Part shown: piece by piece, positions 42-51,329 of the stretch
Layout of the letters: the number at the start of each line of letters is the position of its first letter
How positions within the stretch are numbered: position 1 is the first letter of the stretch
NCBI GenBank assembly: GCA_029556915.1
Contig: JAKQIT010000074.1
Span: 433,752 to 497,751, forward strand
Source: Pseudomonadota bacterium
Lineage (GTDB): Bacteria > Pseudomonadota > Gammaproteobacteria > Burkholderiales > Methylophilaceae
DNA length: 64,000 nucleotides
Direction of reading: 5' to 3'
The notes under the pieces: model-generated
Told to the model about the DNA's origin: nothing
The model's database searches: none
What the model saw: only the letters and a program-made list of their open reading frames with translations
Translations under genes and position numbers: made by a program

Positions 42-1520
42 GTGCAAATTTCTTACCCAAAATCGTTTTTAAAATTGCTGCTCATCGGCTTTGCGTTGGT
101 GATGTTGCCCTTGATTGCGGCTTTTATCAACGCCAATATTCAGTTTAACAAGCTCACCAAACAAAGCTTGTTTAATATGTCGCAAGCAGTGGAAAGCACG
201 CGCAGTAGCCAAATTTTGCTCGAAGAACTCGCCATTATGGAGCGCAGCGCACGGCAGTACTTTGTGCTGCATGATCAACTGTTACTGACCAATTTTAGCA
301 AGGCGCACGAGCGACTAAGCAATGCGCTCAATACACTATCGCAACAGCCTATTGCCAAGCCACAGCAAGCGCAACTCATCACATTTTCAAACCAAGAAAG
401 TATTTTATACGCCACCGTAAGCAACGCCACTACGCTAACAGAGTTTGATGAAAACATGGCGCAAACATTTGGCACGCTGACCAACCAAGCCAATGAAATT
501 GTGACTATCAATAATCAACTTATCGACAAAGAGGCTGCGCTTTTTAAAGCAAAAGTGTCTCAAGTTAAAAAATCACTCTTTTGGCAAATGCTGACGATTT
601 TTCCTTTTGTGCTGATTATTGCAGGCTTAATTACTTGGATGATTGTGCGCCCTATCAGGCGTATGGATGCCGCCATAAGCCAACTGGGAAAAGGCGATTA
701 CGAGCATGTGATTGAAATTAATGGGCCGGGAGATTTGCGTCAACTCGGGCTACGGCTTGACTGGCTTCGGATTGCGCTAAAAGATTTGCAACAGCAAAAA
801 CAACGCTTTTTACAACAAGCTTCGCATGAACTCAAAACGCCACTGACGGCGATTCGCGAGGCTGGTGAACTACTTAATGATGGTGTTGCAGGCGCATTAA
901 CACCGCAACAAAACAAAATTGTGTCGATATTGCGCGATAACAGCCTACGTTTGCAAAAAATGATTGAAAATCTGTTGAAATATACCGAAATTCAATTTAA
1001 TGCTACGCATGTTAAGCCATCACAACAGGCACTACCCGAAATGATAGGTAAAATTTTGCAAGCGTACGCGCTCACCATTGCACATAAAAAAATTAAAGTA
1101 AAAACACAAATTGAGCCAATTATTATGTTGGTTGAGAGCGAAAAATTACACACCATTTTAGATAATTTAATTTCTAATGCGGTGAAATATACGCCTGAAA
1201 ATGGCGAAATTATTGTGCAGGCAAGTGTGACAAAATCTATCATCGCCAAGCCAATGGTCACAATTGAAGTAAAAGACACTGGGCCAGGTATTAGTGATGC
1301 GATTCAAAATGGTCTGTTTACGCCTTTTTATCATGGCGAGCAAGCACAGAGTAGCTTGGTGGGCAGTAGCGGTTTGGGTTTATTTATAGCCAAAGAAGCT
1401 GCTGAAGCACTGCATGGTGAGCTAAGCTTAGCTGAAAATAAAAAAAATATCACCAATGCCGCGGGCGCTAAAACAATGGGTGCCCATTTTATTTTACGCC
1501 TGCCACTAAGCGCTAATTAA
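42..1520 (+). CDS. glrK: GlrK/QseE-like sensor histidine kinase
   Basis: Inner-membrane sensor kinase of a two-component system. The 492-residue protein has an N-terminal membrane segment (about 10-30), a periplasmic domain of about 150 residues, a second membrane segment (about 182-203) and a HAMP linker. A HisKA box follows (SHELKTPLTAIRE, phospho-acceptor His262), then a HATPase with N box (NLISNAVKYT), G1 (DTGPGIS) and G2 (GSSGLGLF). The start at 42 is a GTG codon directly before a typical signal-anchor. The following lipoprotein and sigma-54 activator give the same three-gene order as enterobacterial glrK-qseG-glrR, and the length fits GlrK (about 475). The signal sensed is unknown. Kinase function is certain; the GlrK name rests on architecture and gene order. 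Confidence 0.88.
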   Translation: MQISYPKSFLKLLLIGFALVMLPLIAAFINANIQFNKLTKQSLFNMSQAVESTRSSQILLEELAIMERSARQYFVLHDQLLLTNFSKAHERLSNALNTLSQQPIAKPQQAQLITFSNQESILYATVSNATTLTEFDENMAQTFGTLTNQANEIVTINNQLIDKEAALFKAKVSQVKKSLFWQMLTIFPFVLIIAGLITWMIVRPIRRMDAAISQLGKGDYEHVIEINGPGDLRQLGLRLDWLRIALKDLQQQKQRFLQQASHELKTPLTAIREAGELLNDGVAGALTPQQNKIVSILRDNSLRLQKMIENLLKYTEIQFNATHVKPSQQALPEMIGKILQAYALTIAHKKIKVKTQIEPIIMLVESEKLHTILDNLISNAVKYTPENGEIIVQASVTKSIIAKPMVTIEVKDTGPGISDAIQNGLFTPFYHGEQAQSSLVGSSGLGLFIAKEAAEALHGELSLAENKKNITNAAGAKTMGAHFILRLPLSAN

Positions 1521-1566
1521 ATCGGCACAAACACATTATAAAAACGTTAATATTTGTTATCATCTT

Positions 1567-2220
1567 ATGCTTATGAAAACACGCAAATCCCTCATTTTGT
1601 TATTGGCAAGTCTGCTCATTACTGCATGTTCCAGCCCTGCAAACAAGCCAAATAGTAAGCCTACGGAACTTAAACAAGCAAGTGAAAGCAGAACCATTTT
1701 TTCAACCAAATCAGCTGATGTCAATGATTACTTAGCATTTGCCGAAGAGTATGCCAATTTATCGCCCGAAGCACAAAAACAAACGCTCAATGCCACCAAT
1801 CAGCAGCTAGCAACAAACGCAAATGATTTATTACAGCGCTTTAAGCTTGCCATGATATATGCATTACCAAGCAGTACCTTGCAAGATGGACAAAAAGCAC
1901 AAAATTTACTGCTATCTATTTTGCAAGAAAATCAACTTACCAACACGCAAAATGCCTATGCGCATGTATTGTTTGATTATGTAATGGCATTAAATAAAGC
2001 AAGTAAATCAGGCCGAGAAGATGAAAAACGCATTGATACAATTTTGCAAAAAAATGACAATTTGCAAAACAAATTAGACAGCACGCAACAAAAATTAGCG
2101 AGTACACAGCAAAAGCTTGAAGCCACGCAACAAAAATTAGAGGCTGCGCAGCAAAAAATTGATGAGCTCAAAAATATTGAAAAGTCGATGGGGCAACGCG
2201 AAGTTTCACCTAAAAAGTAG
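1567..2220 (+). CDS. QseG-like lipoprotein with C-terminal coiled coil
   Basis: Predicted envelope lipoprotein of 217 residues. The signal peptide ends in a lipobox (LLITAC, Cys about 21). The C-terminal part carries a coiled coil built of four tandem heptads of the type STQQKLA/ATQQKLE, encoded by 21-bp repeats at about 2078-2162. It lies between the sensor kinase and the sigma-54 activator, the position of QseG/YfhG in enterobacteria, where this outer-membrane lipoprotein modulates the kinase. Sequence similarity to QseG is only inferred from position, lipobox and size. A second in-frame ATG at 1573 is an equally good start. Confidence 0.75.
   Translation: MLMKTRKSLILLLASLLITACSSPANKPNSKPTELKQASESRTIFSTKSADVNDYLAFAEEYANLSPEAQKQTLNATNQQLATNANDLLQRFKLAMIYALPSSTLQDGQKAQNLLLSILQENQLTNTQNAYAHVLFDYVMALNKASKSGREDEKRIDTILQKNDNLQNKLDSTQQKLASTQQKLEATQQKLEAAQQKIDELKNIEKSMGQREVSPKK
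2078..2162 (+). repeat. 21-bp tandem repeats inside the lipoprotein gene
   Basis: Four imperfect 21-bp units encode successive heptads (core ACGCAACAAAAATTAG) in the C-terminal coiled coil of the QseG-like lipoprotein. Such in-frame heptad repeats can change copy number by slippage and alter coil length without shifting the frame. Confidence 0.7.
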
Positions 2221-2232
2221 GCTATCAAACGA

Positions 2233-3588
2233 ATGAAACAAACCATATTAGTTGTTGATGATGATGCGGACATTCTTAATTTATTAGAGATGCGCTTAAG
2301 CGCAAGCGGCTACCATGTAGTCGCTGCAAGTTCTGGGCAACAAGCACTTTCACTGTTTAACATGCAAGCTATCGGGCTGGTGATTAGTGATTTACGCATG
2401 CCTGAAATGGATGGTTTTGCTTTATACACGGCTATTCACCAACTCAATGCTACCGTACCGTTTATTTTGCTCACCGCCCATGGCTCGATTCCTGAAGCTG
2501 TGCACGCCACGCAACAAGGGGTGTTTAGCTTTTTAACCAAGCCCTTTGATAGCAAAGTATTGTTAGAGTTGGTTGCCAATGCTTTCAAAATCACACCGCA
2601 ATACGCAATCAGTAATCATGATGATGAGGCTTGGCGTTCTAGCATTATCAGTGGTAGCCAGCAAATGCAAAGCCTGCTTGCCCAAGCCAAACTGGTGGCG
2701 GCATCCGATGCCAGCGTGCTGATTCAAGGGGAAAGTGGCACGGGTAAAGAATTGCTTGCGCAATCTATCCACAATGCCAGTCCACGCCATGCCGACCCTT
2801 TTGTGGCGATTAACTGCGCGGCGATTCCTGAAGCGTTATTGGAGTCAGAGTTATTTGGTCATAAAAAAGGCGCATTTACGGGTGCTACGCGTGACCACCA
2901 AGGCTTATTTCAAACGGCCAATGGTGGCACCTTGTTTTTAGATGAAATTGGCGATATGCCCATGAGCATACAAGCCAAGCTGCTGCGTGCATTGCAAGAG
3001 CGGCTGATTCGACCAGTGGGTGGCACGAATCAAATCCCCATCAATGTGCGCGTGCTTTGCGCTACGCATAAAAATTTGCTAGAAGAAATGCAAGAAAAGC
3101 GTTTTAGAGAAGATTTATATTACCGCATCAACGTCGTGAATTTATCCATTCCATCGCTGGCTGCGCGACGTGAAGACATTCCATTGTTAGCCAATTACTT
3201 TTTAGCTAACCTCAATAAAAAATACCATAAAAAACTCAATGGGTTTGCACCTGATGCGCTTGAACTCATGATTGCCGCGCCTTGGCCTGGCAATATTCGT
3301 CAATTACAAAATATTATTGAGCAAGTGGTGGTGCTATCTACCACACCGATTGTCACTAGCGCTCTGGTACAAAAAGCCTTGCAAGATAATATTTCAAGCA
3401 TGATTTCGTTTGATACCGCACGAAAAAACTTTGAGCAGCAATACCTCATTAACTTGATGAAAGCCACGCAGGGTAATGTCACGCAAGCCGCTCGCATTGC
3501 TGACCGTAATCGTACCGAATTTTATAAAATCTTGGAACGTCACCAAATTAATCCCGCCCTTTTTAAGGCAACCGTCGCTAACGATTAA
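2233..3588 (+). CDS. glrR: GlrR/QseF-like sigma-54-dependent response regulator
   Basis: Transcription activator of 451 residues with three domains. An N-terminal receiver has phospho-acceptor Asp53 (VISDLRMPEMDG). A central AAA+ domain has Walker A GESGTGKE, the sigma-54 contact loop GAFTGA and Walker B GGTLFLDEIGD. A C-terminal Fis-type helix-turn-helix covers about 410-440. The GAFTGA loop shows that it acts on sigma-54 RNA polymerase. It starts 12 bp after the lipoprotein stop. The only intact sigma-54 promoter in this region lies just downstream, preceded by two sites matching the GlrR motif TGTC-N10-GACA, so the EF-hand gene is its probable target. The length matches E. coli GlrR (444). 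Confidence 0.9.
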   Translation: MKQTILVVDDDADILNLLEMRLSASGYHVVAASSGQQALSLFNMQAIGLVISDLRMPEMDGFALYTAIHQLNATVPFILLTAHGSIPEAVHATQQGVFSFLTKPFDSKVLLELVANAFKITPQYAISNHDDEAWRSSIISGSQQMQSLLAQAKLVAASDASVLIQGESGTGKELLAQSIHNASPRHADPFVAINCAAIPEALLESELFGHKKGAFTGATRDHQGLFQTANGGTLFLDEIGDMPMSIQAKLLRALQERLIRPVGGTNQIPINVRVLCATHKNLLEEMQEKRFREDLYYRINVVNLSIPSLAARREDIPLLANYFLANLNKKYHKKLNGFAPDALELMIAAPWPGNIRQLQNIIEQVVVLSTTPIVTSALVQKALQDNISSMISFDTARKNFEQQYLINLMKATQGNVTQAARIADRNRTEFYKILERHQINPALFKATVAND

Positions 3589-3602
3589 AATCCCCTACTT
3601 TT

Positions 3603-3620
3603 TGTCTCAAAAGAGAGACA
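3603..3620. promoter_or_regulatory. GlrR-type activator site 1 (TGTC-N10-GACA)
   Basis: Exact match to the inverted-repeat motif TGTC-N10-GACA published for enterobacterial GlrR. It is centred near -165 from the predicted sigma-54 start. Because it can form a hairpin followed by four T residues, weak terminator activity for glrR cannot be excluded. Confidence 0.72.
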
Positions 3621-3668
3621 AGTTTTCCTAGCTATTTTTCAATCAGTTAGCGTTTTACCTCAATATTT

Positions 3669-3686
3669 TGTCGCTATTCAGAGACA
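3669..3686. promoter_or_regulatory. GlrR-type activator site 2 (TGTC-N10-GACA)
   Basis: Second exact TGTC-N10-GACA match, 66 bp (about six helical turns) downstream of the first and about 99 bp upstream of the predicted start. Two phased sites upstream of a sigma-54 promoter are the usual layout for an enhancer-binding activator. Confidence 0.75.
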
Positions 3687-3749
3687 GAACTCAACTAGCC
3701 AATTTTAGCCTTTTATAAATAACATATTGTTTTTAAACAATATTTAAAG

Positions 3750-3766
3750 TTGGCACGCGCATTGCT
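3750..3766 (+). promoter_or_regulatory. Sigma-54 (-24/-12) promoter of the EF-hand gene
   Basis: The sequence TTGGCACGCGCATTGCT matches the sigma-54 consensus TTGGCACG-N4-TTGCW exactly, with ten bases between the invariant GG and GC. Transcription would start near 3776. An AGGA ribosome site lies about ten bases before the ATG at 3811. Confidence 0.88.
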
Positions 3767-3810
3767 ATATATCTAGTGCAGTACTTTTTAATTATTTAGG
3801 ATATACAGTT

Positions 3811-4125
3811 ATGTTGACATTAAATACTACTAACACATTAAAAACTTTGGCCGTTGCCGCTTTATTTGCGTGCGGTGTAACAGCTCAAACTGCTATGGCC
3901 GCTGATGCAGCCAAAGTTGACCCAGATTTCGCAAAATTGGATGCGAATGCCGATGGCAAGATTTCACTGAAAGAAGCAGCAAAAGACAAAGGTTTATCAG
4001 CCAGTTTTGATGCTGTGGATGCAAACAAAGATGGTAGCGTGACAGGTGATGAGCACGCAGCATTTAAAACCGCTTCTACTGGCGTTAGCACAGCCCCAGC
4101 TGAACCAGCTCCTGCGGCTAAGTAA
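3811..4125 (+). CDS. Secreted EF-hand calcium-binding protein
   Basis: Small exported protein of 104 residues. A signal peptide of about 30 residues ends in AMA-ADA. Two canonical EF-hand loops follow (DANADGKISLKE and DANKDGSVTGDE), then an Ala/Pro-rich tail. Both loops have acidic or Asn residues at positions 1, 3, 5 and 12 and should bind Ca2+ in the periplasm. It is the only gene between the sigma-54 promoter and a strong terminator, so it is transcribed alone. A role in envelope stress or metal (calcium or lanthanide) buffering is conceivable in a methylotroph, but neither loop has the proline at position 2 typical of lanmodulin. Confidence 0.82.
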   Translation: MLTLNTTNTLKTLAVAALFACGVTAQTAMAADAAKVDPDFAKLDANADGKISLKEAAKDKGLSASFDAVDANKDGSVTGDEHAAFKTASTGVSTAPAEPAPAAK

Positions 4126-4188: not shown

Positions 4189-4220
4189 ACCCCGCTGCGC
4201 GATGTAGCGGGGTATTTTTT
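4189..4220 (+). terminator. Rho-independent terminator of the EF-hand gene
   Basis: A GC-rich stem CCCCGCT/AGCGGGG with a nine-base loop is followed by TATTTTTT, 64 bp after the stop codon of the EF-hand gene. Confidence 0.85.

Positions 4221-49655: not shown

Positions 49656-51329
<1,674 letters not shown>

Follow-up and report, generated by a model that had tools for sequence, protein, structure and literature searches.

A probable GlrK-QseG-GlrR-type system with a predicted sigma-54-dependent EF-hand output gene in the Methylophilaceae

Introduction

What does a GlrR-type response regulator control when a gene for a small EF-hand protein lies directly behind it? The question is raised by the window analysed here, a 64-kb (64,000-nucleotide) stretch of DNA from a bacterium of the Methylophilaceae, in which a three-gene operon is followed by two palindromes, a sigma-54 promoter-like element and an EF-hand gene. 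In the accessible part of PMC6075780, the sigma-54 outputs described for enterobacterial GlrKR are glmY and rpoE, and E. coli QseF is reported to use three sites with the consensus TGT-N12-ACA, with help from IHF and a role for QseG. GlrK-GlrR has also been reported from beta- and delta-proteobacteria (PMC8895600, available text). The GlrKR papers we consulted deal mostly with enterobacteria. By title and opening of the abstract, no listed open-access paper on GlrR/QseF describes the present arrangement.

Results

A probable GlrK-QseG-GlrR-type operon

Three tightly spaced genes on one strand (positions 42-3588, Table 1) follow the order of E. coli glrK-qseG-glrR. The kinase shares 31% identity with E. 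coli GlrK over 464 aa (E 1.3e-58). The response regulator combines a receiver, a sigma-54 AAA+ domain and a Fis-type HTH, with GlrR as its closest full-length match. Identity to E. coli GlrR reaches 55% across 441 aa (490 bits), and RNRTEFYK, a segment of the recognition helix, is unchanged between the two proteins. In NCBIfam the GlrR model came out on top with 602.2 bits, the runner-up (403) lying about 200 bits behind, and the HTH_8 score of 21.2 bits fell just short of its cut-off of 22. Because the regulator misses the cut-off of the curated GlrR equivalog NF011695 (602.2 of 763 bits), we call it GlrR-type and not a formal equivalog.

The product of the middle gene gave no match in Pfam and NCBIfam scans and nothing significant in BLASTP against E. 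coli QseG (E 2.8). A profile of the genus lipoproteins matched E. coli QseG weakly (16.5 bits; hhalign probability 30%) and only over 46 C-terminal residues. A preliminary description had placed a glrK-lipoprotein-glrR operon directly ahead of the palindromes, and the palindromes do follow genes in this order. Judged by scores and context, on which we base the predicted orthology, these genes probably form an envelope-stress system of the GlrK-QseG-GlrR type.

Table 1. Features of the locus, numbered by position in the window
Feature	Position	Strand	Details
glrK (qseE)-type sensor histidine kinase	42..1520	+	492 aa, GTG start; HAMP, HisKA, HATPase_c
QseG-like lipoprotein	1567..2220	+	217 aa; lipobox-like LLITAC and coiled-coil-like C-terminus, both by eye
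glrR (qseF)-type sigma-54-dependent response regulator	2233..3588	+	451 aa; Response_reg, Sigma54_activat, AAA_lid_14
Distal GlrR-type upstream activating site UAS1, predicted	3603..3620	.	TGTCTCAAAAGAGAGACA, exact TGTC-N10-GACA; aligned site in genus relatives
IHF-like site between UAS1 and UAS2	3637..3649	+	TTTCAATCAGTTA, 1 mismatch to WATCARNNNNTTR
Proximal GlrR-type upstream activating site UAS2, predicted	3669..3686	.	TGTCGCTATTCAGAGACA, exact TGTC-N10-GACA
IHF-like site between UAS2 and promoter	3720..3732	-	TAACATATTGTTT, 1 mismatch
Sigma-54 promoter -24/-12, predicted	3751..3766	+	TGGCACGCGCATTGCT, TGGCAC-N5-TTGCW, 0 mismatches
Expected transcription start	3776	+	inferred: -12 GC plus about 11 nt
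Ribosome-binding AGGA	3798..3801	+	9 nt ahead of ATG; similar AGGA in aligned relatives
Two-EF-hand protein, probably exported	3811..4125	+	104 aa; EF-hand families; conserved family A1
EF-hand loop 1	3940..3975	+	DANADGKISLKE, canonical 12-residue loop, residues 44-55
EF-hand loop 2	4018..4053	+	DANKDGSVTGDE, canonical 12-residue loop, residues 70-81
Intrinsic terminator-like hairpin 3' of EF-hand gene	4189..4213	+	11-pair stem, then T-run

Palindromes and a sigma-54 promoter between glrR and the EF-hand gene

The 222-bp region from glrR to the EF-hand gene contains UAS1 and UAS2, which lie 66 bp apart (start to start), begin 148 and 82 nt ahead of the -24 element, and are the sole TGTC-N10-GACA matches within the 64-kb window. 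Both sites and their spacing agree with the preliminary description, as does its full-consensus sigma-54 promoter, which is present without a mismatch and has the enhancer-like sites upstream of it. The sites had also been assigned to the enterobacterial GlrR motif type, and E. coli glmY indeed carries the same kind: TGTCTGTAAATCACGACA, TGTCGCTTTCTGGCGACA and TGTCTCTTTTTAGCGACA stand ahead of TGGCACAGTTACTGCA, with the IHF-like word TAACTCATTGATT between two of the UAS. A second perfect sigma-54 match in the window, at 50361, lies within a 549-aa ORF of the opposite strand, and promoter-like matches at up to two mismatches (76 found vs 68.7 expected) are mostly chance. No sigma-70-like site was found on the plus strand between 3400 and 4400, and the rpoN gene is present in the genome. 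The UAS1 region (3601-3622) also scores as terminator-like and may be the end of the glrKR transcript.

Two such palindromes in a 64-kb window are unremarkable, as 14 of 100 shuffles reach two. The pattern itself is unenriched genome-wide, because the 3.275-Mb genome holds 9 sites vs 17 for the reversed-pattern control. What is remarkable is the clustering of sites and promoter, which is far above chance: when the intergenic region was simulated 200,000 times with a first-order Markov model, at least one site arose in 98 copies and the promoter in 2, and neither two sites nor a site with the full -24/-12 element arose in any (0/200,000 each).

The two IHF-like words are noted for a position common to relatives; each alone is below significance, the inter-UAS word being weak (0.12 of shuffles equally good) and the word nearer the promoter within chance (0.33 of shuffles). 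The former recurs at the same offset with 0-1 mismatch in 10 of the 12 genus regions in which both UAS were detected. Between UAS2 and the promoter, the exact IHF consensus is found in 8 of 15 genus regions, in 7 of them at an offset of 17-18.

The EF-hand protein

The window protein exceeds the Pfam cut-offs of EF-hand_5 (36.2 bits, cut-off 25.9) and EF-hand_1 (27.9, cut-off 25.4), which places it among the EF-hand proteins and, with its two canonical loops, bears out the earlier claim of a two-EF-hand protein behind the promoter. Its hydrophobic N-terminus ends in AMA and reads, by eye, as a Sec signal peptide; the protein is probably exported. It has no BON match and no PEP-CTERM tail. Past the terminator-like hairpin, the next gene lies on the other strand and presumably encodes thymidylate synthase.

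Regulator, sites and EF-hand gene within the genus

The preliminary description had suggested that related genomes be searched for the same arrangement, and among 52 genomes of the genus, apparently Methylotenera, GlrR and the EF-hand gene occur together in 19. The EF-hand family at a score of at least 96 bits is found in exactly those 19 genomes that have GlrR at 600 bits or more, and in none of the 33 others, where the best score is 47.7 bits; both limits were chosen after the scores were known. Fifteen intergenic regions from 14 genus genomes align over both palindromes, the AT-rich middle and the promoter. UAS2 is exact in 11 of the 15 and has one mismatch in the remaining four, and it lies 61-64 nt ahead of the -24 element in all of them. 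The distance from UAS1 to UAS2 is 64-66 nt in the 12 regions where the pattern detected both. The ends of the relatives' palindromes are kept and the interiors vary. In three genomes the EF-hand gene no longer adjoins glrR, being separated from it by about 3.5 kb (G018) or about 1 kb (G010, G011), and the sites and promoter have moved along with it. Gene content and alignment together demonstrate co-inheritance of the regulator, its predicted sites and the EF-hand gene within the genus.

A composite pattern of site plus promoter gave 23 matches in 19 of the 52 genomes vs 2 control matches. Fifteen stand ahead of an EF-hand gene, one ahead of a PEP-CTERM-like gene, and seven elsewhere. Four of these seven fall within long opposite-strand open frames, and three of the four are in genomes without GlrR; the remaining three (L046, L048 and L049) occur in G032, G023 and G071, the three genomes where a divergent GlrR copy was seen. 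G032 has only the divergent GlrR (535 bits) and is without an EF-hand relative of at least 96 bits. The divergent copies (55-62% identity), at L025 (G032), L069 (G071) and L068 (G023:C7), precede small genes of unknown kind, and the sites there have drifted, for example to TGTAGTAATTTAGCTACA. They are possibly a second, re-specialised branch of GlrR.

The slot behind glrR across the order

In a sample of 300 genomes of the order, GlrR was found at E <= 1e-125 in 121 genomes, at 129 places, and the DNA behind 128 of these was examined, a few stretches ending at contig ends. An exact palindrome lies within 600 nt past the glrR stop codon at 50 of the 128 places, with 1 site for the reversed control. 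With up to one mismatch allowed, a palindrome is present at 81/128, and at 68/128 such a site stands 45-95 nt ahead of a sigma-54-like element; the reversed control covered the exact-site count. At 87 places a promoter-like element with an ORF after it could be picked, and 41 gave no such slot. A strict composite pattern matched 31 times in the 300 genomes (control 0), and the GlrR HTH word was present in 15 of the 29 of these loci that were examined. The slot counts are not phylogenetically independent, and the slot genes were picked by a simple ORF rule, some picks surely being wrong.

The 87 ORF products and the window protein were matched to protein families at E <= 0.01. They include 23 BON proteins, 11 EF-hand proteins (the window's among them), 9 glycine-zipper proteins (Rick_17kDa_Anti), 8 of glycosyltransferase family 2, which we take to be MdoH/OpgH, 1 MdoG, 2 CsbD and 2 DUF1328. 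Periplasmic glucan genes (MdoG, MdoH-like) stand behind glrR at L167, L176, L188, L192, L194, L200, L218, L228, L233 and L397, in several families. One recurring type of slot protein begins with a hydrophobic stretch and bears a C-x-x-C-G motif, sometimes together with a glycine zipper (L154, L157, L166, L187 and others); the motif itself occurs in 21/87 slot proteins.

When the ten other EF-hand slot proteins of the order were scanned individually, seven also matched BON, two of these from the window's own family; in one of the seven the EF-hand scores are under every cut-off. In seven of the ten slots, site and promoter are in step. The other three (L129, L136 and L237) have a promoter-like element with no site at up to one mismatch.

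The slot beyond the order and in named genomes

The class sample comprised 274 genomes, of which 63 carry GlrR at E <= 1e-125. Outside the order, 60 of 63 GlrR places were examined, three being left out. An exact palindrome lies behind glrR at 15 of these 60 (control 1) and at 45 there is none; a palindrome with up to one mismatch is present at 25/60 and a site in step with a promoter-like element at 14/60. A promoter-like element with an ORF was found at 20 places, and no slot at 40. The slot is thus common, not universal. In ten of the 20 slots the ORF encodes an EF-hand protein, which in two cases also matches BON and in one (L289) scores under the EF-hand cut-offs. The site is in step in seven of the ten and farther away in L268, L281 and L311. 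Taken over both samples, an EF-hand gene stands behind glrR with a sigma-54-like element in 13 sampled families (5 in the order, 8 outside), and in 11 of the 13 a GlrR-type site with up to one mismatch is in step with the promoter.

A pattern scan of named genomes matched 119 stretches, of which 80 were listed; the scan also gave stretches of unrelated phyla that look like chance. Among the matches listed, a Parasulfuritortus MAG (L360) has an EF-hand gene behind the GlrR HTH word, and EF-hand genes with no GlrR seen nearby occur in two gammaproteobacterial MAGs (L384, and L383, which is below the cut-offs). Chromobacterium piscinae contributes a BON gene (L351) to the listed matches and a Rhizobacter MAG contributes MdoG (L397). 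In three Serratia species, osmY (L325, L358 and L362) is preceded by an exact GlrR-type site together with a full sigma-54 promoter; Serratia OsmY is over its equivalog cut-off in a scan that covered two of these proteins (L325 and L362).

Bactofilin-like genes with a site and sigma-54 promoter are found, among the matches listed, in Dechloromonas and relatives (L324, L326, L330, L342 and others). They point away from a glrR that lies about 3.4 kb off on the other strand, and the Pfam match was checked in L324, the bactofilin gene of Dechloromonas denitrificans, where the distance to the oppositely directed glrR is about 3.5 kb.

A second composite in the genome and other readings of the locus

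A site 50-80 nt ahead of TGGCAY-N6-YGC occurs at two places only in the window's genome (G000). The second, L050 (G000:C12:166013-166108), has the perfect palindrome TGTCGCAAATTTGCGACA 63 nt ahead of a sigma-54 promoter that serves a 215-aa protein whose C-terminus resembles a PEP-CTERM signal. This gene is a possible second member of the predicted GlrR regulon.

The same composite, the only other one in G000, can be turned the other way, since it precedes a PEP-CTERM-like protein about 23 kb from one NtrC-type regulator. Several full-length NtrC-type regulators are present in the genome, and one of these sigma-54 activators, for instance the PEP-CTERM-type regulator-like protein at C12:189383, might bind the palindromes instead of GlrR. 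In Aquincola, an RpoN-dependent PEP-CTERM promoter is reported to have a predicted enhancer (PMC9850573). We consider such a substitution very unlikely, as the EF-hand gene tracks close GlrR in the 52 genus genomes, such sites recur behind glrR elsewhere at 50/128 and 15/60 places, and those of E. coli glmY are of the same kind. It also ranks low because no regulator of G000 reaches the cut-off of the PrsR model (best 413 of 502.6 bits).

We regard it as most improbable that the EF-hand protein is a lanmodulin-like lanthanide binder of methylotrophy that came under GlrR by happenstance. Counted for this reading were a weak NCBIfam LanM match, the genus itself, whose members we assume to be methylotrophs, and an ORF converging on the EF-hand gene at L009 (G001; one genome) that we take to be XoxF-like. 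The LanM match, however, misses its cut-off by far (24.9 of 135 bits), which ranks this reading low. Lanmodulin loops have proline at position 2 and aspartate at position 9, whereas the window loops have alanine and Ser/Thr at these positions, and EF-hand outputs are spread over 13 families. That UAS1 is no more than the hairpin terminating the glrKR operon, with UAS2 a chance match, is hardly tenable and was ranked low, since the terminator-like score of 3601-3622 has no counterpart at UAS2 and both sites keep their ends and spacing in relatives, even where the EF-hand gene lies away from glrR.

Discussion

Our analysis makes it highly probable that the locus is a GlrK-QseG-GlrR-type system with a local, sigma-54-driven EF-hand output gene directly behind it. 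The proposal that GlrR controls an EF-hand output is supported by the genome comparison, but such control is not peculiar to this organism, since EF-hand outputs occur in 13 families. The window resembles the E. coli GlrK/QseG/GlrR (QseEGF) system in its three-gene order, the type of regulator, TGTC-N10-GACA, the sigma-54 promoter and the IHF-like word found in glmY. It differs in what is controlled: E. coli has a small RNA ahead of glrK and three sites, whereas the window has an EF-hand protein gene behind glrR and two exact sites. The regulator, DNA words and promoter architecture thus appear to be common to E. coli and the window's genus, and the predicted controlled gene differs.

From sequence comparison we infer binding, activation, the part of IHF, export, calcium binding and physiological role along the following lines. 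GlrK would sense the state of the envelope, the lipoprotein probably helping, and would phosphorylate GlrR. GlrR-P oligomers would then bind both palindromes, and DNA bending, probably by IHF, would bring them to the sigma-54 polymerase at TGGCAC-N5-TTGCT, where ATP hydrolysis would lead to a transcription start at about 3776. The product would be a small EF-hand protein, probably periplasmic.

This protein most likely helps to protect the cell against envelope or osmotic stress; it may do so, for instance, by binding calcium close to the membrane or cell wall. The suggestion draws on the same slot holding EF-hand+BON, BON, glycine-zipper, CsbD and periplasmic-glucan genes elsewhere. Osmotic and envelope stress is the theme that unites BON/OsmY, CsbD and glycine-zipper proteins with periplasmic glucans. 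A task shared by EF-hand and BON proteins is supported by the fusion proteins that join both.

Two other systems invite comparison. The likeness to OsmY lies in the BON proteins that occupy the same slot elsewhere, in Serratia osmY with its site and sigma-54 promoter, and in the EF-hand+BON proteins, which unite both output types; the window protein differs in having EF-hands and no BON match. With the PrsK/PrsR and RpoN control of PEP-CTERM proteins, as proposed in the available part of PMC9850573, the window shares two-component sigma-54 control of exported proteins. It differs in that its genome has no regulator over the PrsR cut-off and its EF-hand protein has no PEP-CTERM tail.

These comparisons suggest that the position behind glrR serves as a local output slot, filled by differing envelope-stress genes in different lineages. 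As the fillings vary across genomes, the window's EF-hand protein seems to be one of several occupants of an old GlrR output slot and not a local oddity. The occurrence of EF-hand outputs in 13 families further indicates that this output may be old and the enterobacterial small-RNA output one of several. A bolder version, which we put forward tentatively and think rather unlikely, is an ancient exchangeable cassette in which GlrR, palindromes and promoter were retained and the protein was swapped, the periplasmic EF-hand/BON product feeds back on QseG/GlrK, and the enterobacterial small-RNA output is derived. Feedback of this kind on the sensor would explain why the gene is adjacent to the system and, across the genus, occurs only with it.

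For the biology of this family of regulators, the comparison of several hundred genomes points to a role of GlrKR wider than the enterobacterial glmY and rpoE, that of a sigma-54 switch for envelope-stress proteins whose outputs would include periplasmic glucan genes as well as proteins of the EF-hand and BON types. The predictions are testable in cultured relatives of Methylotenera, in Chromobacterium and at Serratia osmY, and they lead to the hypothesis that the system is tied to calcium or to osmotic stress.
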